The notes beneath the pieces are model-generated. The model saw only the letters and a program-made list of their open reading frames with translations, had not been told where the DNA came from and ran no database searches. Below are positions 7,805-56,250 of a stretch of DNA of 64,000 nucleotides, one piece after another. The stretch is from Saururus chinensis (Eukaryota > Streptophyta > Magnoliopsida > Piperales > Saururaceae), in the NCBI GenBank assembly GCA_035235625.1, contig CP141148.1, forward strand, positions 4,149,001-4,213,000, given 5' to 3'. Each line of letters starts with the position of its first letter. Position 1 is the first letter of the stretch. The position numbers were made by a program, and so were the translations under genes.

Positions 7805-9016
7805 CTAGCTTTCCAGCTTGAAACAGATTTTTATTTTTAAGAACTCCTCCTCTGTTTCAAACTCAAATATGCATTGTTTTAGATCTCTTGCAAATGACTG
7901 AAACTTTTCAAAAACATGGCTGAGATGTTTAGCTGCATTTTGATATATATGCCATATACATAAGCGATGATGGGTTTCCGGCATAACAACTCGAATAGCT
8001 TTAGCCATTGCTGTACATTGGTCTGTAATGATAGTAACCGGTTTCTTACCAAACATTGCAACAAGATAAGTCTCAAGTAACCAAATAAAAGAATCAGCAG
8101 TCTCATCATATAACAAGGCAGCCCCAAATATGGTATTTTGGCGATGATGATTTACACCAGTGAACAATGCACACGGCCAATTTATGTTAGTAGTTCTATA
8201 CGTGGTATCAAAGCTGATCACATCCCCAAAATTCTCATAGTCTACTATCATCCTCGCATCTGCCCAAAAGATATTAGTTATCAGACTATCTTCATCCAAC
8301 TGCATTGAGTAGAAGAAAGATGGATTATCCTTTTGTTTTCTTTTGAAGTATTCTAACAAAGCCGCTGCTTCTCCTTTTTCTATCACCTTTTGACGCTTAG
8401 TACGTAAATAATTTTTCAGATCCACTGCAAGAAACCCTACATTTTGTTGACCACCAGCTTGGCTTGCTTGCAAAGCTATAGAATCTTTAGGTGGAATGCC
8501 TACACTTGCCGCTGAATCAGCCAACACAGATTGAGACATACTCATGCGTCTATGTGAATTCAAAAATGGGACCTTTGTTGGGGTCACAACCATGTGATTA
8601 TGACTTGGCTCAAATTCTACAATTTTATACATGTCACCTACAAGCTTGATAACCATCATAGCTAAACAACCCGTTCTTGTTTCTGGACAAGGATTCTTCA
8701 CCACTCTATTTCTTTTATCTTCAACTCTTTTGCCTTCTTTTGAACAACAAAATCTTCGCATTCTAATTATGTCATCTTTTTTCCATTTCCATCCTCTTCG
8801 AATGCTAAATCCAATTGTTGCACTATAATCATTGTAGAATTTGTAAGTCATCTCCTCTGTTGCAAACTCCATTCCAATATTTGGTACTCTTTCTTCTACT
8901 TCATGAAAATCTAATTTCCGACAAGTAGAGTTTACTTGGCTCCCTATTTGAATGTTATTTTGTTCATCACCTTCATTATGCCCATCACATCGAACACTTG
9001 ACCCCTCACTTGCCAT
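7805..9016 (-). CDS. FAR1-type MULE transposase, C-terminally truncated
   Basis: The frame could open at 9166 inside the palindrome array, but the ATG at 9016 (MASEGSSVRCDG) is the likelier start, giving 403 residues. Residues about 49-145 are a FAR1 DNA-binding domain (EFATEEMTYKFYNDY, GFSIRRGW, RRFCCSKEGKR). Residues about 260-390 are the MULE transposase domain, with the first two acidic catalytic residues in VISFDTTYR and VTIITDQ and the Cys-His pair in LCIWHIYQNAAKHL. The frame stops soon after EFETEEEFLK. Family members usually run several hundred residues further, with the third catalytic Glu and a SWIM zinc finger; both are absent. The loss coincides with the edge of the captured UFL1 DNA. 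FHY3/FAR1 transcription factors are domesticated relatives, but the TIR context marks this as a transposon gene. Confidence 0.88.
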   Translation of the reverse strand: MASEGSSVRCDGHNEGDEQNNIQIGSQVNSTCRKLDFHEVEERVPNIGMEFATEEMTYKFYNDYSATIGFSIRRGWKWKKDDIIRMRRFCCSKEGKRVEDKRNRVVKNPCPETRTGCLAMMVIKLVGDMYKIVEFEPSHNHMVVTPTKVPFLNSHRRMSMSQSVLADSAASVGIPPKDSIALQASQAGGQQNVGFLAVDLKNYLRTKRQKVIEKGEAAALLEYFKRKQKDNPSFFYSMQLDEDSLITNIFWADARMIVDYENFGDVISFDTTYRTTNINWPCALFTGVNHHRQNTIFGAALLYDETADSFIWLLETYLVAMFGKKPVTIITDQCTAMAKAIRVVMPETHHRLCIWHIYQNAAKHLSHVFEKFQSFARDLKQCIFEFETEEEFLKIKICFKLES

Positions 9017-9124
9017 TGCCCTACACAAGTCCATAAAAATATTATGAAGAAAAGAAGGGAATATATTCAAAATTTTGAAACTAAGACATTTTATTAGTGT
9101 GTAACAAAATACTATATGGCTATA

Positions 9125-9215
9125 TTGTAGCAATAATGCTCCAATATTGCTCCAATGCTGATGCAATATTGCTCAAGGTTGGAGCAATATTGCTCCAACC
9201 CTACAGCAATATTGC
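9125..9215. repeat. Short palindrome array in the right TIR
   Basis: A few copies of the GAGCAATATTGCTCC palindrome, mirror image of the start of the left array. It lies just upstream of the transposase start and could act as its promoter-proximal binding site; that is inference. Confidence 0.8.
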
Positions 9216-10889: not shown

Positions 10890-11170
10890 AGTGCATCACA
10901 GCCGATCCGAAGCGGCCATGAACGGCGCCCGGAGGTTGGTCACTTGTGCATGGATTTGAGGGGCGTGGGTTAACGTGGGGAAAATGACAGACACCCATTT
11001 GACCATGGAATCGGTAGGTGAAAGGAAGAAAGGGCATTGAGTATGTAGCAAGGCAATTTATACCTATTGTTCGCCCATTAGTTTATGTGAGCTTTTGAAG
11101 ATTGTGCTGGCCTTTAGGGAAACAAGAAATGGTAGTTTAATTGTGTGCCAAGTATGCAAGTGATGAAGGT
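10890..11170 (+). repeat. Dispersed block, copy 1 (also at 32.4-33.4 kb and 43.4-43.9 kb)
   Basis: Shared landmarks are CACTTGTGCATGG, GTGGGGAAAATGACA, CCATTAGTTTATGTGAGCTT and AGATTGTGCTGG. Copies 2 and 3 lie next to PIP-type peptide genes. This copy would lie next to the first peptide gene if the LTR nest at 12.2-19.5 kb were removed. No coding potential is seen. Confidence 0.7.
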
Positions 11171-13683: not shown

Positions 13684-16600
13684 TATTGTGCACGATTATC
13701 AGACTATTTTATTTCCTTGTTATTTTAGGGCATTAAGCTATTTTCTTATGTATTAGCTTAGTATTTCATTATGTAATTGGATGATGAACTGTTATTGGAC
13801 CAGCTAGTGGCCCCAGAGTAGCCTGGCCCACTAGCTAGTGCGCACCCCTAGGAGAGTGCGCTATTCTTGGCGTGACTCCCTAAAGGAGTGGTCTTCCCCT
13901 ATATGGGTCGACTCCCTCTTTTGTTTTGGATTATGCAAATTGATTATTCCATATCTCTTCCATTTCTTCTTCTTCGCTCCTCTTTCTCTATGTGATCGTT
14001 CAAGGTACCATTTGTGCCTACATCGGGCACAACATTTGTATCGGAGCTATCATGATCCCCAGCCATGGCGTCAGGCAAACAACCCACCACAGCCCCAGAA
14101 CCGCAGCCCGAGAAGGAGGTCGATGCTCCAACGGCCAGTCCCCAATCAGCCCTAGAGACTGTCAGTGCTCCTACTCTGGCGCAAATTATGACCAAGCTTA
14201 TGTCTCTGACAATGGCTGTTGCCCAGCTCCAAGCAGGGCCTTCAGCGCCCTCAGCACCACTTCTCGCCAGACCCCCGGTCACGAACATGGAGAAGGGGGA
14301 AGCATCACAGGCTCCAGAACAGCATGAGCCAGGCCATCAGGCAACGACGGACAGGGAGATGCATGTTCCTCAGGCTCCCCTGCGCTTTGGACCCTTGATC
14401 ATGCTGGCAAAGGGAGGTGTCAGGCCTGGGATAGACAAGGCCTACCAGGTGTTCAAGAAAATGCCCCAATGGTGCTGCCCCCCAGAAACCTTTTTCCAGA
14501 GGTAGAGGATGACTGGGAGGAGTACCTGGGACCTCGCAGAGGACCACGGGGAGGAGCAGGGCCCCGTTTGGCCCGCCTACAGTTTGCCCGCAACAATGGG
14601 GATGATGATCCAGTGGTATGGTTGTACAAGTTTGAGAAGTTTTTTTCCTATCAGAGCGTGCATTCTGAGGTGGAACGACTGCACATAGCGGCCTTCTACT
14701 TGGATAGGGACGCATCGGTGTGGTTCTAGGGCTTCGAGAAAGAGTGCACTACCCAACTTGAGCCGCCTTCTCCAATGAGTTGTGCGTTCAGTTTGGCCCG
14801 AACGAGTTCCAAGACTTCAACAAGATGCTCTCCACATTGCACTAGACTACCATAGTTTGCGCCTATTATACGGAGTTTATGAAGGTGGCCAATCGCCTCC
14901 CAGACTGGCCAGTGGCCGCCTTGGTGGGCACCTTCAAGCGCGGCATCAAGCCTCAAATTTTGGAAGAGATGCACCACTTTCCCTGCTCCAACATGCAAGA
15001 CATCACGCGCCAGGCTTGAATTGAGGAGGAAAAGTTGGCTAGGCAGCGGCGAGGGGGCGGCTTGGGCCTTTTCCCAGATTTGCGGTTGGCGCTAACTCCC
15101 CTGCCGTCCCGGCCAACAGCCCCATGGCCGGCCGCCCTGGCCAACAGCTTGGTCAGGCCAGTAGTGTGGTTCGTCAACTTACACCTGCATAGATAGAGGA
15201 ACGCCGGTCTAAGGGTCTTTGCTTCTGCTGCGATGAGAAGTTTGTCCCATGTCACCGTTGTGCCATCAAGGGCAGCCTCCTCTTGGAGGAGGTCGACGAA
15301 GATGACGAGGTGGCAGCTATGGGTGACTCATCCCACCAGGACAACGTGCTACCTGAGATCTCTATCCATGCCTTCTTTGGGGTGTTTATTCCATGTACCA
15401 TGCGGGTTCAAGGCCATCTCAAGTGGCAGCAAGTGGCCATCCTGATCGACAGTGGTTCCACTCACAATTTCATCAACAACAAGGTGGCCCAACGGCTGGG
15501 TTGCTTCATGTCGGATTCAATGCCATTTGACATGTTGATTAGCAATGCCAAACATCTCCAGAGCACCATGGTATGTGCGCAGGCCACGCTCTCCATCCAA
15601 GGCCACACATTTGTCACTGGCCTCTTCTTGTTGCCTACGAAGGGGCCGGACATGGTGCTGGGGTACAATGGCTCCAAGAGCTTGGGGATGTGGTCTGGAA
15701 CTTCAGGGACATGGTGATGGACTTCGACATTTAGGGGTAGCGGGTTCGGCTTGAAGGATCCCAGTCAGGCACCCTCCTTTCAGCCCAGTCGGTGAGCTCC
15801 TTCTTCTGGTTCGCACTGCAAGGGTTCCTCTTGCAGCAGCAGGCAACAGTCGAGGTGCATCAGGATGAGCCACCTCCGGACCTTCTTGAGTTATTGGAGG
15901 AGCATCAAGACGTGTTTGCTGAGCCGACGGGTAGTGCGACTGCATGACCACCATATTCCCATTATCCCGAGAGCCCACCGACCAATGTCCGCCCATACCG
16001 CTATCCTCATATTCAGAAGTCAGAGATAGAGCATCTCGTGGCTGACATGCTCCAAGCAAGTATATTCCGCCCTAGCACAAGTTCGTACCCATCCCCAGTG
16101 TTGCTGGTTCTAAAGAAAGACAGTACATGGCAGTGCTGTGTTGACTACCACGCCTTGAATGCCATCACCATCAAAGACAAGTATCCAATACCTGTGATCG
16201 GGGAACTTTGGATGAGTTGGCTGGTGCACAGGTTTTTAGTAAACTCAACTTTCATTTGGGTTACCATCAGATTTGGGTGCAGCCAGCCGATGTGCACAAG
16301 ACCGCCTTTCGGACTCATGACGGTCATTTTAAGTTTCTCGTCATGCCATTCGGGCTGACCAACACCCCCTCCACCTTCCAAAGCCTCATGAATGATCTCT
16401 TTAGGCCTTACCTCCGCCGCTACATATTGGTATTCTTTGACGACATCCTTGTGTACAGTCAGTCATGGGCGGAGCATCTAGAGCATCTCAGGTCGGTCTT
16501 CTCTGTTCTGCAAGATAATTCCTTATTTCTTAAGTGTTTGAAGTGTTCATTTGGTAGCCGACGGGTGGATTATTTGGGACATATCATCTCGCGAGACGAC

Positions 16601-19055
16601 ATCGCCACAGACCCGTCAAAAGTGGCCTCCATGCTCTCATGGCCGCAACCCACCAATGTTCGGGCGTTGAGGGGCTTCCTGGGCCTCACTGGCTATTATA
16701 GACGGTTCATCAACAGGTATGGGGAGATGGCTTGACCCCTTACAATGCTTCTCAAGAAGGGGGCATTCGATTGGAATGCAGTGGCTTAGGCGGCATTTGA
16801 GGAGTTGAAACAGGCTATGGCATTGGCCCCTGTGCTGATCTTACCTGATTTCAGTCGGCCCTTCGTGGTGGAAACCTATGCTTCGTAAACAGGGCTCGGG
16901 GTGGTGCTGTTACAGAATGAGTGCCTCATTGCCTACTTCAGCAAGGCTTTGGCAGGCTACTCTTTGTCCTTGTTAGTTTATAAAAAGGATATGCTAGCTA
17001 CTGTCCTCACCGTTGGCAAGTGGCGACCCTATTTACTTGGCCATCGATTCTTGATTCACACTGACCACCAACCTCTGAAGTACTTCCTGGAATAGCAGGT
17101 GTCTACTCCCTCTCAACAACTGTGCGTCAGTAAGCTACTTGGTTATGACTATGAGGTCGTGTACAAGAAAGGGGTGGACAACACCGTGGCCAATGCACTG
17201 TCTCGCAGCTCTGCCTCGAAATCATGCTTGGCCATTTCTACGTTGTCCTACCCTTTCATTGATGAGTTGATGCGGGCATACTTGGAGGATTCCCAAACGC
17301 ATTCATTGATTATAGGCATCTAGGCCGACCCAGCGGCCCATCCTTTCTTTGTGCGGCAGGATGACCTCCTCTATTGGAAAGATCGCCTTTGGGTTCCAAA
17401 TGTGGATGATCTGCACAGGCGAGTTCTTTCTCACTTCCATGACACCCTAGTAGCCGGTCATGAGGGAGCTTTTCGCACTTATAAGTGGGTTTGCCAGAGT
17501 TTTTTGTGGCATGGTATTCGACATGCAAACCAGGAGTATGTGGCCGCTTGTGATGTCTGTCAGAGGGCTAAGGCCTCTACCACCTCTCCTGCAGGGTTGC
17601 TTCAGCCCTTACCTATTCTTGATAAGGTCTGGGAGGATGTCTCGATGGATTTCGTGGATACATTGCCCTTGGTGAAAGGCAAGTCGGTGATTATGGTGGT
17701 AGTAGATCGGTTGTCCAAGTACGCTCACTTTTACGCTCTGGGCCACCCATTCACCGCCAAGATAGTGGTCGAGCTCTATGTTCAGGAGGTCGCTAAGCTA
17801 CATGGCATGCCCCGCACTATTGTCTCCGTTCATGACCAGATCTTTATCTCTTGGTTTTGGTAGGAGTTCTTCACGTTCCAGGGCACTTCGCTACACATGA
17901 GTACCGCTTATCATCCTCAGACAAATGGCCAGACCGAGGTGGTCAACAGATGCTTAGAGCAGTACCTCAGTTGTTTCACGATGTCTCAACCCCGCAGATG
18001 GCTTCAACTTCTTCCATGGGAAGAGTGGTCCTATAATACCGCCTATCACACTTGTGCCGGTTTCACTCCTTTCAAGGTGTTATATGGCCGACCACCACCG
18101 ACCGTGTTGTCTTTTGTCCCTCATCGCTTCTCTGTAGCTAAGGTGGACTACATGTTCCAGACAAGGGACGAGGTTCTTCACTAGCTCAAGGCAAACTTGT
18201 CCTCTACTCAAAACAGGATGAAGCAAATCTATGACGGTCATCACACTGATCGGGAGTTTGAGGTGAGTGACTTGGTTTATGTTTCAGTTCTTCCTCCGCA
18301 TCAGACTTCTTTGTTTCAGCCAGAGCACTCCAAGCTCACCCCCCGTTTTCATGGTCCATATGATGTGGAGGAACATATTGGTCCACTGGCTTATCGTCTT
18401 GCCCTACCACCTCGTTCTTTGGTCCATACGGTGTTCCATGTGTCACGTCTTTGTTGTTGTGTGGGGAATGCTTCTCTCGCCACTAATGCTCCACCACCTC
18501 CTTTGATGGGACCGATTTCTACTGCAAATCTGGGTCCGGCCTCGGTCATTGAAAAACATCGGGTCCGCCGTTCCAGTCGCATTATGATAGAGGTTTTGAT
18601 TTCCTGGCAGGGCCAGCCACTAGAGGATGCTACCTGAATGCCTGAGGATGAGTTCACAACCAGATATCCTACTTGGTTGCCTTAAGGACAAGGCGAATAG
18701 CGGAAGCATGGTGGAATGTTGTGCACGATTATCAAACTATTTTATTTCCTTGTTATTTTAGGGAATTAGACTATTTTCTTATGTATTAGCTTAGTATTTT
18801 ATTATGTAAATAGATGATGAACTGTTATTGGACCAGCTAGTAGCCTGGTCTACTAGTTGGCTTGTGCCCCTAGGAGAGCGCATTGTGCTTAGAGCGACTC
18901 CTAGGGGAGTGGTCGTCCCCTATATGGGTCGACTCCCTCTTTTGTTATGGATTATGCAAATTGATTATTCCAAATCTCCTCCATTTCTTCTTCTTCTCTC
19001 CTCTTTCTCTATGTGATAGTTCAAGGTACCACTTGTGCCTGCATTGGGCATAACA
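13684..19055 (+). mobile_element. Decayed Ty3/gypsy LTR retrotransposon, Reina-like chromovirus
   Basis: The LTRs are 13684-14034 (351 bp) and 18717-19055 (339 bp). The flanking 5-bp duplication TTTGC lies at 13679-13683 and 19056-19060. A primer-binding site resembling the initiator-Met type (TATCGGAGC) follows the 5' LTR, and a purine-rich tract (GGAAGCATGGTGGAA) precedes the 3' LTR. Parts in order: gag about 14065-15260, aspartic protease about 15430-15690 (LIDSGSTHNF), reverse transcriptase about 16050-16740 (FDDILVYSQ), RNase H about 16830-17230 (TDHQPLKYFLE), integrase about 17340-18200, and a chromodomain-like tail about 18580-18690. Protease-RT-RNase H-integrase order plus the tail gives the chromovirus branch; the short LTRs and total length of 5.4 kb suggest Reina. 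The LTRs differ at about 34 of 335 aligned positions by eye, so it is probably several million years old. It is a fossil with roughly ten breaks. Confidence 0.9.
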
Positions 19056-20426: not shown

Positions 20427-20771
20427 TCAGTGGCGCACATCATCCACCATCCCATGGCCAGCTCCTGGGCTGGGTCCGGATTCCTTGATCCCTTGAATGC
20501 TATCTACATTTGCAAACCTAGGGCCCCTGCCATGGGTGTAAGAGTTCCCAGCTACAGAGCTTGGACCAGAGTCCTTCATTCCTGCGAGAGCATAGCCGTT
20601 GATATGTGCATGGTTGTCTCCAGGAGTTGGTCCGGAGTCCTTTACCGCTCCGAGAGAGAGGCCATCCAAGATCTCTCTGAGAAACGGATTGAATGGTCTG
20701 GCATGGACAGGGCTTAAGACTGAGCTGAACAAGACGGCAAGCAGAAAGAGAAGAAAAAGCTTCATGATCAT
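20427..20771 (-). CDS. PIP-type secreted peptide precursor 1 (SGPS motifs)
   Basis: The product is 114 residues. Residues 1-24 form a signal peptide (hydrophobic core LFLLFLLAVLF). A conserved segment HARPFNPFLREILDGLSLGA follows, then three peptide-like units: SGPTPGDNHAH (46-56), SGPSSVAGNSYTH (68-80) and SGPSPGAGH (98-106), each after a G-x-x-K leader. PAMP-induced secreted peptides end in SGPSPxGxGH, are secreted, trimmed and proline-hydroxylated, and act as immune or growth signals through a receptor kinase; assignment here rests on that motif. The third unit is closest to canonical. A TATA box (20877-20886) lies about 105 bases upstream on the minus strand. The gene is a paralogue of the one at 34802-35203. 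An IDA- or CEP-like name is possible, but the GH-ending SGPSP core favours PIP/PIPL. Confidence 0.85.
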   Translation of the reverse strand: MIMKLFLLFLLAVLFSSVLSPVHARPFNPFLREILDGLSLGAVKDSGPTPGDNHAHINGYALAGMKDSGPSSVAGNSYTHGRGPRFANVDSIQGIKESGPSPGAGHGMVDDVRH

Positions 20772-32003: not shown

Positions 32004-32409
32004 CAGAAAAATATACTTATAGAACAAAAAGAAAGAGCAGCCATGAGTATTACCATCAACAATGCATAAGCAGGGGTAACCGAGTACGTACTATGATAGC
32101 GTTGAGTATGAGTCTGAAAACCACATACATTTGGTGTATCAATGTTTTGTTCATACTAGTGTTTATGGTGGCCGAAGATTCATTTAGTTGACCGCTGGAA
32201 TTCGGGTTCGGCACGTCTAGAAATATGAGGGCAGGGGCCTTGTCGGTTGTCATCTTTTCCACCCATTTCTTGCACGAGTAGAAGGGGAAGGTTGGGAGGA
32301 AGCATTGATCTCATCTTTTTATTTGGTCGGTAAATGAAGAGGAGAAATTCAAGTATCTCATCAAGTAGGCTAGACATGGAGGATTGAAACTGAGAGCAAG
32401 AGGGTCAAG

Positions 32410-33375
32410 AATTGTCTATGACTTGTGGGGATGAGCCATCTTAGAAAGATTTCTTCCATGGTCTGATTTGCTTCGCTGAGTAAAAAAGGAGAATTGATGG
32501 CAGAAATTAATAGGGGATCTTCTGATCAGCTTTTAGTCCTTCCTGTTCAATGGTTTCATAGCCTGAAAATCCTGACTAGGTGACCACCGGCGGCCACGAA
32601 TGGCACCAGGAGGTTGGGCACTTGTGCATGGCTTTTAGTGGTGGGGAAAATGACACACGCCTCTTTGACCAAGGAATGTGTAGGCCATAAACTGTATAGA
32701 TGACAAGCAAAACCTAACGAGATGGTGAAAGCGGTAATAGACATTTAAGGGAAGTATTTTTTTATGCTACTAATTAAGAATGAGTCTAATGTAAGGATCA
32801 CATAAGTCATTCATCTATAAAATTGACGGGATATATACTAACACATGTTAGCTTCAAAGCTAATGATGCTAACGTGTGCTAAGAGTACGTGCAGTCAATT
32901 CTAAATATCAATAACTCTCATACATTCTTTAAGCTAAGCTCATTGCTATTAGGAAGCATAGAAAATACTTCAGCCTTTAACGATGTACCAAGGTAATTAA
33001 CATTTGGCCATTAGTTTAGGATGTGGATAAGTTAACTCTATATCACTTCCAACTAAATTTTGTACTATGTTATAATTAAAATAAAAAGTGGGTCTCACGT
33101 GATAATAGGAAAACTCACTTTTCTCTATCTAATCAAAACCTAATGCAAGGTCTTGTTGGACGATAGAAGGTAATGTAGGAAAATCTTTCTCCATTAGTTT
33201 ATGTGGGCTTTCAAAGATTGTACTAGACTTTAAGAATCAATAAGATGTAATTTAATTGTGTGTTACCCAATCTAATTACCCACATATAAAGTTAATTTGT
33301 TATTATGGTGGGACTAACCATAGGGATGATTTTAGCAATAATGAGTAAGCTATCATGAAGTTGCATGGTATTGAA
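32410..33375 (+). repeat. Dispersed block, copy 2
   Basis: Matches copy 3 (43375-43920, inverted) from ATGGTCTGATTTGCTT through CCTGAAAATCCTGACTA, CACTTGTGCATGGCTTT and CCATTAGTTTATGTG to TTATGGTGGGACTAACCA. It is interrupted by MITE copy 2 (32751-32971). It sits next to the segmental duplication holding peptide gene 2. Confidence 0.75.
32751..32971. mobile_element. Palindromic MITE, copy 2
   Basis: Ends GAAGTATTTTTTTATGCT and AGCATAGAAAATACTTC are inverted; the interior is homologous to 31803-32003. It is inserted within the dispersed block, since the other copies of that block lack it. Confidence 0.75.
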
Positions 33376-34801: not shown

Positions 34802-35203
34802 TCATTGGCCAACTCCCGGGCTGGGTTCGGGGTTCTTCATCTCCCCGATGCTGTCTACACTTGCAAACGTATGCCCCCCGCCATGAGTGTAAGAGTTCCC
34901 AACTCCAGGGCTTGGACCAGCATCCTTCATCCCTCCAAGAGGGTACTTTGCAGGGAATTCACTCTCCTCTTTATCACTGTGTGCGTGCCCTTGTCCGGGG
35001 CTGGGCCCGGAGTCCTTAACCCCACCAAGAGTATAGCCGTTGGTGTGTGCATGGTTGTCTCCGGGACTTGGGCCAGCCTTTACTGCTCCTAGAGAGAGGC
35101 CATCGATGATCTCTCTGAGAAACGGATTTAATGGTCTGGCATGGGCAGGGCTCGAGAGTGAGCAGAGCAAGATAGGAAGCAAAAGAAGAAGAAAAAGCTT
35201 CAT
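34802..35203 (-). CDS. PIP-type secreted peptide precursor 2 (four SGPS-like units)
   Basis: The product is 133 residues. Residues 1-22 form a signal peptide (LFLLLLLPILL). HARPLNPFLREIIDGLSLGA then matches precursor 1 almost exactly. Units: AGPSPGDNHAH (43-53), SGPSPGQGH (65-73, nearest to canonical), AGPSPGVGNSYTHGGGH (95-111) and PEPSPGVGQ (125-133). The last unit has lost SGPS and the final His, and a stop follows immediately, whereas precursor 1 keeps SGPSPGAGH and a short tail. The second unit and the acidic linker SDKEESEFP are additional compared with precursor 1, so unit number changes between paralogues. A TATA box at 35305-35312 and TTGAC motifs upstream (35335-35340, 35564-35569) fit a stress-inducible promoter. 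Secretion and processing are inferred from the family. Confidence 0.85.
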   Translation of the reverse strand: MKLFLLLLLPILLCSLSSPAHARPLNPFLREIIDGLSLGAVKAGPSPGDNHAHTNGYTLGGVKDSGPSPGQGHAHSDKEESEFPAKYPLGGMKDAGPSPGVGNSYTHGGGHTFASVDSIGEMKNPEPSPGVGQ

Positions 35204-43190: not shown

Positions 43191-43374
43191 TTGTACAATT
43201 TTGTAACTCCAAACTTCCTAAGCACTTCCTAATTAATGCTAAAATCATCCTTGTGATCAGCTCCACCAAAAAAACTCACCTTAAGAAAATCTTAGTTTTA
43301 TATTTGGTTTTATTAAATTGGGATAATATAGACTCAAAAAGAAAAATAGCACTGCAAATATTTGATTGTGGAAC

Positions 43375-43920
43375 ACCCACTTCCCGATCACTTCCTAATT
43401 AATGCTAAAATTATCCCCATGGTCAGCCCCACCATAAGAACACCTTAATTTTATATGTAAATTAATTAGATTGGTTTTCACACAACTAATCCCCCAGTTC
43501 TTGTTTCCTAAAGTCCAGCACAATCCTCAAAAGTTCACATAAACTAATGGACAAACATTAGGTTATTAATTGCCTTAGTCCATCCTCCATGGCCTTTCTC
43601 CCTTTCACTTTCTCGTTAGGTTTTGACTGTCCTCTATTCTTGCGATGGTCTACTCATTCCTTGCTCAAATGTGTGTCATTTTCCCCACATTAATATATGC
43701 CACTCAAAGCCATGCACAAGTTCCCAGTTTCAAGGTGCCATTCATGGCCGCCGTTGGTCTCTACCTTAGTCAGGATTTTCAGGCCATGAAACCATTGGAT
43801 CACCCCACCTAAACAGAAAAAGACTAAAAGGTGACCGAAAGATCTCCCCCATTATTTTCAACCATTAACCCTCCTTTTCAACTCAATAAAGCAAATCAGA
43901 CCATAGAATATATACTGCTA
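43375..43920 (-). repeat. Dispersed block, copy 3, in the upstream region of PIP-type gene 3
   Basis: Reverse complement of copy 2 (32410-33375), without the MITE. A partial extra copy of its inner end occurs at about 43200-43290 (ACTTCCTAATTAATGCTAAA in both). It forms the DNA 300-850 bases upstream of the ATG at 44227 and may contribute regulatory sequence. Confidence 0.75.
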
Positions 43921-44140: not shown

Positions 44141-44150
44141 CTATAAATAC
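44141..44150 (+). promoter_or_regulatory. TATA box of PIP-type gene 3
   Basis: CTATAAATAC, 77-86 bases before the ATG at 44227. The core TATAAATA is shared with the promoters of the other two peptide genes. Confidence 0.75.
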
Positions 44151-44226: not shown

Positions 44227-44760
44227 ATGGCCCAAAAGCTGTTGTCTCTTCTTGTTCTTCAAGTCTTTCTTTTCCTTCTCTCCGCTTCTTACTCTTGTGT
44301 TCACGCACGGCCGTTGCCCCCTTTTGAGCACGAAACCAATGCTCTTCGTGATGAATCTCCACTTGGGGTAATCAATGGCCTTGTCTTGGATGGGATGAAG
44401 AACTCCGGCCCAAGCCCAGGTGGTGGTGGCCACAAGTTCACGGCCACTAGCACACTGGGCGCGATTAAGGATTCGGGACCAAGCCCGCAAGGCCCCGGCC
44501 ACAGGTTCGTAGACCCCGGAGCTTTGGGTGGGATAAAAAACTCCGGCCCGAGCTCAGGTGGTGGTGGCCATGCCTACTCTAATGCTGATATTCTTGGTGG
44601 GATCAAGCATTCTGGGCCAAGCCCCGGTGGTGGTGGCCACGAGCTTGTGACTGCTGTTGGTGGAATTAAGGCATCCGGCCCTAGCCCAAAAGGTGGTGGT
44701 CACAAGCTCATGACCTTAGGTGGGAGTAAGCAGTCAATGATGAGGCTGGGACGACAATAA
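44227..44760 (+). CDS. PIP-type precursor 3 with five SGPSPxGxGH units
   Basis: The product is 177 residues. Residues 1-27 form a signal peptide (hydrophobic LLVLQVFLFLL), followed by HARPLPPF as in the two paralogues. Five complete units follow at 60-69 (SGPSPGGGGH), 83-92 (SGPSPQGPGH), 106-115 (SGPSSGGGGH), 129-138 (SGPSPGGGGH) and 150-159 (SGPSPKGGGH). Start-to-start spacing is 23, 23, 23 and 21 residues, each after a leader of the form L-G-x-I-K-x. PIP precursors usually hold one or two such motifs at the C-terminus, so five in series looks like a poly-peptide precursor. The tail (KQSMMRLGRQ) lacks the motif. Each unit could be released and hydroxylated at its prolines; that is inference. 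There is a good TATA box, and no frame damage is seen. Confidence 0.88.
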   Translation: MAQKLLSLLVLQVFLFLLSASYSCVHARPLPPFEHETNALRDESPLGVINGLVLDGMKNSGPSPGGGGHKFTATSTLGAIKDSGPSPQGPGHRFVDPGALGGIKNSGPSSGGGGHAYSNADILGGIKHSGPSPGGGGHELVTAVGGIKASGPSPKGGGHKLMTLGGSKQSMMRLGRQ

Positions 44761-53955: not shown

Positions 53956-56250
53956 TCAGTTTGCAGTTATTACAATCTTTTTTCCTTTCTTGCCTCTCCC
54001 CGTCATCATCCTTGAAAGAATATCTGCCTGCTTTGTATTTCCCTCCGCATGAAGACTCCTAATCAAATCTTCACCGCTACTCCAATCCACAGCCCCACCC
54101 TTCTCCATGATCTTGCAAAATATGGAATATGCATTAAGTGTTTTTCCAGCAGCCAAAAGAGCATCCAAAACCCGTTCATAGCTTGAGAAACTAATGTTGA
54201 AATCCCTTTCTAAACCATAATCCAATAGTTTAAGAGCTGCACTTGTCTTATCCATTTCACAAAGGACTTTGAGAAACTGATCAAAATCAAGAAGACACCC
54301 ATTATGCATCAGCAAATTAATTCGCCCAAGAGCCTCCTCAACATGACCTCTGATTAAAAGGGCTTCCAAAATTTTTGAAACAAAATCCATGTTCTCCTTC
54401 ACTCCTTTCTCAATCATACTGTTTATAACCCGACTTGCTGTTTGAACTCTTCCATCATTGAAAAGACCCTCCATGACTACTCTATATAGAGATGCATCAG
54501 GAAGATAGCCCCCTTCAATCATACCATCTAAAGCAGTTTTTGCATCTGCAGGCTCACCTTTCCTCAAGAAGCTCTCAATAAGAGCTTGATAAGATTCCAC
54601 ATCTGCCAAAACTCCACGCCTTTGCATTATCCTTAGAAGCTCAACAGCCAATTCAGGAGCCCCTTCCCTACAATGCCCATGAAGCAAATTGTTAAAAGCA
54701 ACTGAATCCAGCACACCTTTCTTCATCAATTGTCTAAAGAACACCTCAGCCTTCTTAGTGTCACCATTTTGACACAAATACTCAATTATTGGATTATAAG
54801 CATTTGATTCCATCTCAGAAGAACTTGAAGGGTTCAGCAAAATTCCCTTTTCTAGCACTTTATCCAGCATATGGATTGCTCTTTCATATAGTCCTGCCTT
54901 ACAGAAATTCTCAATTAAAAGACCATAATGCGCCGATTCCGTTGGAATACTCAATCTAATCATTCCCTTCAGCACCTCAGAAGCACCATCCATGTTCCCT
55001 GATATGCACATTGAGGAAATCAATCTCAAGAATATGGAATTATCCCTTGGTGTGAGATGTCTCTGCACCATGTCTTTTAAGATCATTCTTGCATCCGCCA
55101 TTTTGTTAGAGTCACATAGACCAGGTAACAAGGTTGTGTAAGTATGATCATTTGGTTCAATTCCAAAGTTACGCATCTCATCAAGTAACCGCAATGAATC
55201 ATCCACACAACCAACAGAAACATACCCTTTGATCATAGTTGTGTAAGTAATCACAGTTGGAGATAGATTTTTTCCTCTCATCTCCACAAAGAATTTTTCA
55301 GCCTCTTCCATCTTCTTGAGACGACAACATCCATTAATCATTGTATTGTAAGTAACCACATCCGGGATAATCCCACGAGTCTTCATATCATCAAAGAATC
55401 TAAATGCAGTTTCTGATTTCAAAGAAAGGAAAAATCCCCATATGAGAATATTATAGGTATGCCGTGTGGGAATTACTCCTTCCACTAGCATAGCATTAAA
55501 ATACCGTTTTGCCATTTGAACTCGACCCCGACGCATGATCACCTTAAATAGAGTGTCATATGATTTTGAAGTCCTCTCAACCCCCAATACTTTCATCTTC
55601 TGAAACATCTTTACAGACTCTTGGACAATTCCAGCTTTACCATAGCTGTCAATCATTATGACAAACATATCTTCATCCCACTCAACACCCTTCTTTGGCA
55701 TATCAAGCAAGATACACCTTGCATGATTAAGCTTAGAAGCACGCCCCAAGATTTCAATTATCTTCAAATGGGTAGTTCGATCATGGCGAAATCCAGTCTT
55801 CTCAACCCAACGAAAGAATTGAAGAGCATGATCAGAATTTCGAGCTCCATGTAGCACATTGTACACAAGCGAATCATCAAACTGAGGAACCAGTGACCGG
55901 ATCGAATTCTGTAATCTGGTTGTCCAGGCCCTTTGAGCCATCATTCGGCAGATTATATCTTCAAGTTTTTCGGAGTTCTGAGGCTTTCTTCGGGCAGCCC
56001 TTTGAGGGATCTTATCCTGTTGAAGGTGCAAATCAGATTGCACAGCATAGGATGGACCAGCATCAGGGATTTCTAGCTGAGTTTGATTCACATCTGAAGT
56101 GGATTCTAACAGAGGCAGAATCGTAGAGGACGTCGAACAGAAGGGGTGAGCAAAACGAAAAGAAATTGAGGACACCCATGGAAAATACTTGAATTCCCAT
56201 TTTGAAGGAGCAACCTTTGAAGCAGAGGAGATAATTTTCATATTTAGCAT
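53956..56250 (-). CDS. P-class pentatricopeptide repeat (PPR) protein
   Basis: A single uninterrupted frame of 764 residues, probably the orthologue of Arabidopsis At2g37230 judging from remembered similarity of the MMAQRAWTTRLQNSIR region and repeats. P-class PPR proteins bind organelle RNA and affect its processing, stability or translation. Residues 1-60 are rich in Ser, Lys and Arg and poor in acids, as in a mitochondrial or plastid targeting peptide. From about residue 157 to 735 there are roughly 14-16 tandem 35-residue repeats, for example HTYNILIWGFFLSLKSETAF, VTYNTMINGCCRLKKMEEAE and HTYTTLLPGLCDSNKMADA. No E or DYW editing domain follows; the C-terminus ends in a basic tail (GRGKKGKKIV). 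ATG 56250 is chosen for length; Met-4 (56241) is equally possible. There are no introns, as usual for the family. It looks intact. Confidence 0.92.
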   Translation of the reverse strand: MLNMKIISSASKVAPSKWEFKYFPWVSSISFRFAHPFCSTSSTILPLLESTSDVNQTQLEIPDAGPSYAVQSDLHLQQDKIPQRAARRKPQNSEKLEDIICRMMAQRAWTTRLQNSIRSLVPQFDDSLVYNVLHGARNSDHALQFFRWVEKTGFRHDRTTHLKIIEILGRASKLNHARCILLDMPKKGVEWDEDMFVIMIDSYGKAGIVQESVKMFQKMKVLGVERTSKSYDTLFKVIMRRGRVQMAKRYFNAMLVEGVIPTRHTYNILIWGFFLSLKSETAFRFFDDMKTRGIIPDVVTYNTMINGCCRLKKMEEAEKFFVEMRGKNLSPTVITYTTMIKGYVSVGCVDDSLRLLDEMRNFGIEPNDHTYTTLLPGLCDSNKMADARMILKDMVQRHLTPRDNSIFLRLISSMCISGNMDGASEVLKGMIRLSIPTESAHYGLLIENFCKAGLYERAIHMLDKVLEKGILLNPSSSSEMESNAYNPIIEYLCQNGDTKKAEVFFRQLMKKGVLDSVAFNNLLHGHCREGAPELAVELLRIMQRRGVLADVESYQALIESFLRKGEPADAKTALDGMIEGGYLPDASLYRVVMEGLFNDGRVQTASRVINSMIEKGVKENMDFVSKILEALLIRGHVEEALGRINLLMHNGCLLDFDQFLKVLCEMDKTSAALKLLDYGLERDFNISFSSYERVLDALLAAGKTLNAYSIFCKIMEKGGAVDWSSGEDLIRSLHAEGNTKQADILSRMMTGRGKKGKKIVITAN

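Follow-up and report, generated by a model that had tools for sequence, protein, structure and literature searches.

A five-unit PIP2/CEP-II-like candidate prepropeptide in a tandem gene cluster of Saururus chinensis

Introduction

PIP and PIPL precursors of Arabidopsis carry the motif once in eight of 11 cases and twice in three (PMC4154866), and the first-pass annotation of the DNA presented here was right for this species in expecting one or two. According to the account in PMC4526919, Arabidopsis PIPs sit at the C-terminus of their precursor, and a signal peptide followed by Arg is characteristic of the family. AtPIP2, AtPIP3 and TIPTOP of N. benthamiana are reported with two SGPS units, and a study of 23 species reports one and two SGP motifs, SGP there meaning within the peptide. 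In Arabidopsis, PIP1 and PIP2 are described as acting through RLK7, and the PIP-like group II CEPs as being perceived mainly by CEPR2 (PMC12494267).

Precursors comprised of several units are already known. In apple, MdCEP4, MdCEP5 and MdCEP10 are reported to hold five to seven units per secreted precursor, and the seven-residue linker KFTNVET of multi-domain (“group 2”) MdCEPs is stated to be similar in 11 plant species (PMC6387203). Two or three domains per precursor are described for pea PsCEP20-24, and both these and Medicago MtPIP8 combine CEP-II and PIP domains in one precursor (PMC9739355). Multi-domain members and tandem clusters are reported among tomato CEP genes, with two units in SlCEP11. 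Arabidopsis CEP9 has a precursor with five motifs but is a CEP, and CEPs are said in the same source to be without the SGPS motif (PMC4526919). What is less usual in the gene described here, termed A1, is that five units occur in PIP form. No precursor with five PIP-form units was found in print among the listed open-licence papers, as judged from their main text, and PMC9369194 yielded no SGPS or PIP passage.

Organization of the five-unit open reading frame

The window, i.e. the whole 64-kb stretch of DNA analysed, corresponds to C9:4149001-4213000 in a genome of 516,460,831 bases in 11 contigs. Features of A1 are listed below with window positions; identities refer to leader plus core in A2, the closest intact paralogue.

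44142..44147, plus strand: TATA-box-like TATAAA, 85 nt upstream of the ATG (consensus match only)
44227..44760, plus strand: A1, five-unit PIP2/CEP-II-like prepropeptide ORF, intact from ATG to TAA, 177 aa
44227..44307, plus strand: likely signal peptide, residues 1-27, with cleavage before Arg28 (VHA-RP), from hydropathy
44395..44433, plus strand: unit 1, predicted 13-mer MKNSGPSPGGGGH, 16/16 identical in A2
44464..44502, plus strand: unit 2, predicted 13-mer IKDSGPSPQGPGH, with the proline pattern of AtPIP2, 12/16 identical in A2
44533..44571, plus strand: unit 3, predicted 13-mer IKNSGPSSGGGGH, with SGPSS and one Pro, 16/16 aligned residues identical in A2
44602..44640, plus strand: unit 4, predicted 13-mer IKHSGPSPGGGGH, 15/16 identical in A2
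44665..44703, plus strand: unit 5, predicted 13-mer IKASGPSPKGGGH, 15/16 identical in A2
44716..44736, plus strand: LGGSKQS, leader-like and interpreted as belonging to an incomplete sixth unit; its counterpart in A2 is LGGIKHS

The protein is laid out as a hydrophobic segment (residues 1-27), Arg28-Pro29, a 30-residue variable region plus first leader, and then the units. Matches to SGPS..G.GH begin at residues 60, 83, 106, 129 and 150, which bears out the five PIP-like motifs at 23-23-23-21 spacing recorded in the first-pass annotation. They are the only matches in six frames of the window, and none occurred in 60 dinucleotide-Markov randomised windows, each inspected in six frames. In terms of DNA, the array consists of five 47-nt copies that form a single family, the other four being 64-89% identical to the reference copy.

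All five units possess the SGPS core and GxGH end of PIP/PIPL peptides, the C-terminal GxGH being shared with group II CEPs. The form SGPSPxGxGH, initially ascribed to all of them, fits four, unit 3 being SGPSSGGGGH, while the annotated GGGG, QGPG and KGGG variants are real. Similarly, the leader L-G-x-I-K proved to be a feature of units 2-4 only (LGAIK, LGGIK and LGGIK), with LDGMK in unit 1 and VGGIK in unit 5. With near-identical units, linkers of similar length and a single signal peptide, A1 conforms to the multi-domain CEP/PIP precursor type, which is a functional type and not a family.

The signal peptide proposed ahead of the motifs is supported by hydropathy and by its junction, which reads H-A-R-P in five of six aligned proteins and H-S-R-P in the sixth. 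R28 and P29 are invariant in all six, so that A1 has both the N-terminal signal peptide and the conserved Arg behind it that are described for PIP/PIPL precursors. A Pfam search with the A1 protein gave no family matches at E up to 1. Upstream of A1, W-box cores number 3 against 2.0 expected, and there is no sign of pathogen induction in this respect.

Comparison with described precursors

A1 departs from Arabidopsis PIP/PIPL precursors in having five motifs instead of one or two, and in the 18 residues that extend beyond unit 5, owing to which the last unit is not C-terminal. Because of this tail, A1 is classed as PIP2-like and not as a strict Arabidopsis-type PIP; residues also trail the motif in potato StPIP1-4, as reported. 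The arrangement of signal peptide and Arg is the one described for the Arabidopsis family (PMC4526919). AtPIP2 contains V-K-x-SGPSP, and A1 units 2 and 4 are each identical to it in 10 of 13 positions, while the two SGPS units of AtPIP2, AtPIP3 and TIPTOP contrast with five in A1.

In the number of units per secreted precursor, A1 resembles apple MdCEP4, MdCEP5 and MdCEP10, and the apple KFTNVET is comparable to KFTATST after unit 1. A1 also shares its leader with the apple MdCEP1 peptide, LGGIKDSGPSPGSGN, and the two cores are similar, although MdCEP1 has one domain only (PMC6387203). Because domain sequences are not printed in the text of PMC6387203, we infer the likeness to MdCEP4, 5 and 10 from the linker and the MdCEP1 peptide. 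The first-pass annotation would have taken its proposal as refuted by common five-unit PIP precursors described across plants; these three apple genes go part of the way and weaken the proposal, though they bear the CEP name.

An LGGIK or LGIK leader with (S)GPSPGEGH is likewise reported for potato StPIP1-4 and tomato SlCEP10 and SlCEP11, which differ from A1 in having the CEP-II register where A1 has the PIP register; SlCEP11 also differs in its number of units. The pea precursors PsCEP20-24 share with A1 the multi-domain organization and a PIP-like SGPSSGG domain, as in unit 3 (PMC9739355). Unlike pea and Medicago, where the two forms are mixed, A1 has five units and the PIP and CEP-II forms reside in separate neighbouring genes.

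A tandem cluster of A-type and B-type genes

In two protein searches of the S. chinensis genome, in which the best candidates were scored, all matches with E < 0.01 fell on contig C9 at 4.095-4.193 Mb, and one further weak match was on C10 (E 0.24). A genome search with a partly invented PIP1-like query returned no matches, an empty answer that the tool itself states to be uninformative. A six-frame scan of 214 kb disclosed seven loci, three A-type and four B-type, among which A1 is the only one on the plus strand. The other six are:

C9:4095447-4096019, minus strand: A2, A-type, 176 aa, ending one residue before A1, closest intact paralogue
C9:4124694, minus strand: B1, B-type
C9:4142978-4143612, minus strand: A3, A-type, frameshifted and split over two reading frames (six-frame scan)
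C9:4146601, minus strand: B2, B-type
C9:4169430 (window 20430..20765), minus strand: B3, B-type, three units, shortened
C9:4183805 (window 34805..35203), minus strand: B4, B-type, units in CEP-II register, one TGA in the matched stretch

Protein identity to A1 is 77% for A2 and 47-50% for the B proteins. In A3, units 1 and 2 are well kept and units 3-5 are changed (SGQSS, GGGWH, GGGPK); by its appearance, this locus is a pseudogene. B4 has a degenerate last unit, and its ORF stops earlier than those of B1 and B2. With a frameshift in one A-type locus out of three and shortening of two B-type loci out of four, the cluster is in the course of losing copies.

Similarity among A-type loci extends into upstream DNA, where A1 is 78.0% identical to A2 over window positions 43334-43814 and 78.8% to A3 over 43316-43543; A1-like upstream DNA is also present near B1 and B2, in shorter matches. 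Additional pieces similar to the A1 upstream DNA (74-84%) are located at window positions 32106-32731, 33182-33361 and 10912-11147 (C9 near 4182-4181 and 4160 kb). A regional tblastn found no related coding sequence beside them, and they are perhaps remains of lost cluster members. A short stretch resembling the B-type C-terminus, AGHGKVDDVR (C9:4130090-4130122, E 0.43), is perhaps another relic.

For the neighbourhood, Pfam was applied to 10 open frames out of the 23 that reach 130 aa or more. The window contains an open frame of 455 residues with FAR1 and MULE transposase domains (7808-9172, minus strand), fragments of an LTR-type retroelement with aspartyl protease, reverse transcriptase and integrase in separate frames (15193-18634, plus strand), and an open frame of 764 residues for a PPR-repeat protein (53959-56250, minus strand). 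Genome-wide, NB-ARC gave 124 scored matches.

Proline register of the units

Proline positions were numbered in a 15-mer ending at the last residue of a unit. In A1, Pro8 occurs in all five units and Pro10 in four, unit 3 having Pro8 alone, and unit 2 also has Pro13. This is the PIP register: AtPIP1 has Pro8 and Pro10, and AtPIP2 has Pro8, Pro10 and Pro13. The combination of Pro9 and Pro11 with PSPG, typical of group II CEPs, is found in none of the five A1 units. Pro9 and Pro11 are present in 13 of the 15 B-type units listed, a pattern common to MdCEP1, SlCEP10, SlCEP11b and most B-type units. The A1 core has ten residues, in PIP form, and the printed apple unit has a nine-residue CEP-II core. 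With A1 in the PIP register and B-type units mostly in that of CEP-II, one core residue therefore divides two forms within a single cluster.

Conservation of units

For the comparison of A1 and A2, unit residues were defined as six of the leader and ten of the core, five times. Identity amounts to 74/80 in units and 60/95 in the rest (Fisher p 4.2e-6). Codon differences, given as synonymous/nonsynonymous, are 17/6 in units and 15/35 elsewhere (p 7.8e-4), and this contrast persists when the signal peptide is excluded (p 0.003). The strong difference between units and the rest derives from a single gene pair. Values of dN/dS for this pair are 0.39 by NG86 and 0.72 by YN00, of which NG86 is preferred, since YN00 gave invalid-value warnings and no value for 3 of 15 pairs; the NG86 estimates comparing A with B genes, being saturated or undefined, were left unused.

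Units at the same position in A1 and A2 are separated by distances of 0, 4, 1, 2 and 2 (over 17 residues, gaps uncounted; unit 3 of A2 has one extra Gly), and the true order of units is the single best among 120 possible pairings. As same-position units match best and units are kept, the array of five distinct units is older than the duplication that separated A1 and A2. Judged from this sequence comparison, the five-unit array is probably maintained by selection. The proposal of a secreted precursor of slightly different PIP-like peptides thereby gains support, in that the units are kept with respect to A2, in contrast to the drifting remainder of the protein, and a separate variant is retained at each position.

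The most changed is unit 2, differing in four of 16 residues. In A2 this unit shows two substitutions of note, Ser to Cys and, at the final His, Asn. The Ser-to-Cys change is reported to abolish activity of apple MdCEP1 (PMC6387203), and single units can therefore be lost.

In the B subfamily, all six pairs, which are not independent, show a higher ratio of synonymous to nonsynonymous differences within units than outside them. Unit identity exceeds that of the remaining sequence in four of the six; one pair is about equal (45/59 in units, 57/74 elsewhere) and one has lower identity in units (29/44 and 43/59).

Proposed processing and alternative readings

We consider it probable that A1 encodes a secreted prepropeptide in the continuum of PIP2-like and group-II-CEP-like precursors, with five ligand units from which several hydroxylated PIP2-like peptides are released. 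Precursors of this kind are processed by subtilases. In the proposed course of events, the signal peptide would be removed before Arg28, leading to secretion; subtilase-type proteases would cleave in the linkers between units; prolines of the SGPSP core would become hydroxylated; and up to five peptides of 13-16 residues with a GH end would reach the apoplast. Once released, they may be perceived by RLK7/CEPR-group receptor kinases and thereby adjust responses to stress, immune responses or root growth. Having five units on each transcript would bring a higher yield together with a mixture of fixed variants. Release from more than one domain is described for the two-domain precursor MtCEP1, for which mass spectrometry of overexpressing root cultures revealed nine peptide species, of which domain 1 accounted for eight and domain 2 for the remaining one (PMC4526912).

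Regarding the response, root inhibition is reported for the apple peptide LGGIKDSGPSPGSGN (PMC6387203) and drought tolerance for tomato TLGGIKAGPSPGEGH and YLGIKNSGPSPGEGH, and the potato StPIP1 peptide work describes that ROS production was not found. Because root-growth and drought effects are printed for peptides with the same leader, immunity is only one option for A1. These effects also bear on the possibility, conceivable although on the doubtful side, that A1 is a CEP-II-type hormone and not a PIP, perceived mainly by CEPR2-like receptors, with responses in root growth, drought or nitrogen, and immunity secondary. Its LGGIK-x-SGPSP leader is that of MdCEP1 and close to that of SlCEP10/11b, known for root growth and drought tolerance. 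PIP-like group II CEPs are perceived through CEPR2 in Arabidopsis (PMC12494267), and the neighbouring B-type paralogues are mostly in the CEP-II register. However, all five A1 units are in the PIP register with a ten-residue core. Function separates the two poorly, since group II CEPs are described as acting in immunity too (PMC12494267).

The C-terminal position of Arabidopsis PIPs (PMC4526919) would suit a precursor in which one unit, for instance the last, is the real ligand and four others are unprocessed repeats, and so would the MdCEP1-inactivating Cys and the Asn at the last His in unit 2 of A2. We regard this as decidedly unlikely: units 1, 3, 4 and 5 are near-identical between A1 and A2 (16, 16, 15 and 15 of 16), and conservation thus extends beyond the last unit, while peptides were found for both domains of MtCEP1 (PMC4526912). 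The frameshift in A3, the shortened B3 and B4, and the promoter-like and coding relics in the cluster raise the question of whether the family is decaying, with the A1 ORF surviving by chance and without present function. Considering that the ORF is intact and that codon differences from A2 within units are mostly synonymous (17 vs 6), this has little probability. Hardly any weight is given to a Gly/Pro-rich cell-wall protein resembling PIPs by chance: G, P and S are abundant in the units, but five ten-residue motif matches, lysine-bearing leaders and unit identities common to the paralogue speak against it.

Returning to the prepropeptide with several ligand units, its most far-reaching version would see in A1 a selected cocktail, each position with its own PIP-form variant, and in B-type genes the source of CEP-II-form peptides. 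The cluster would then supply an RLK7-type and a CEPR2-type signal, with the one-residue shift as a switch. We put this forward as a speculation that is unlikely to hold.

Discussion

Should the precursor architecture alone hold true, A1 would be a regular and well-formed representative of a known type. Multi-unit precursors exist, but evidence for the use of several units is scarce; on this and on why variants are kept, the A1-A2 pair contributes conservation of the units taken together and, individually, of all but one. A paper from 2025 counts the specificity with which CEPs and PIPs pair with CEPR1, CEPR2 and RLK7 among the important tasks ahead (PMC12494267). The PIP-register and CEP-II-register units of the S. 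chinensis cluster offer a natural test of the choice between RLK7 and CEPR2.
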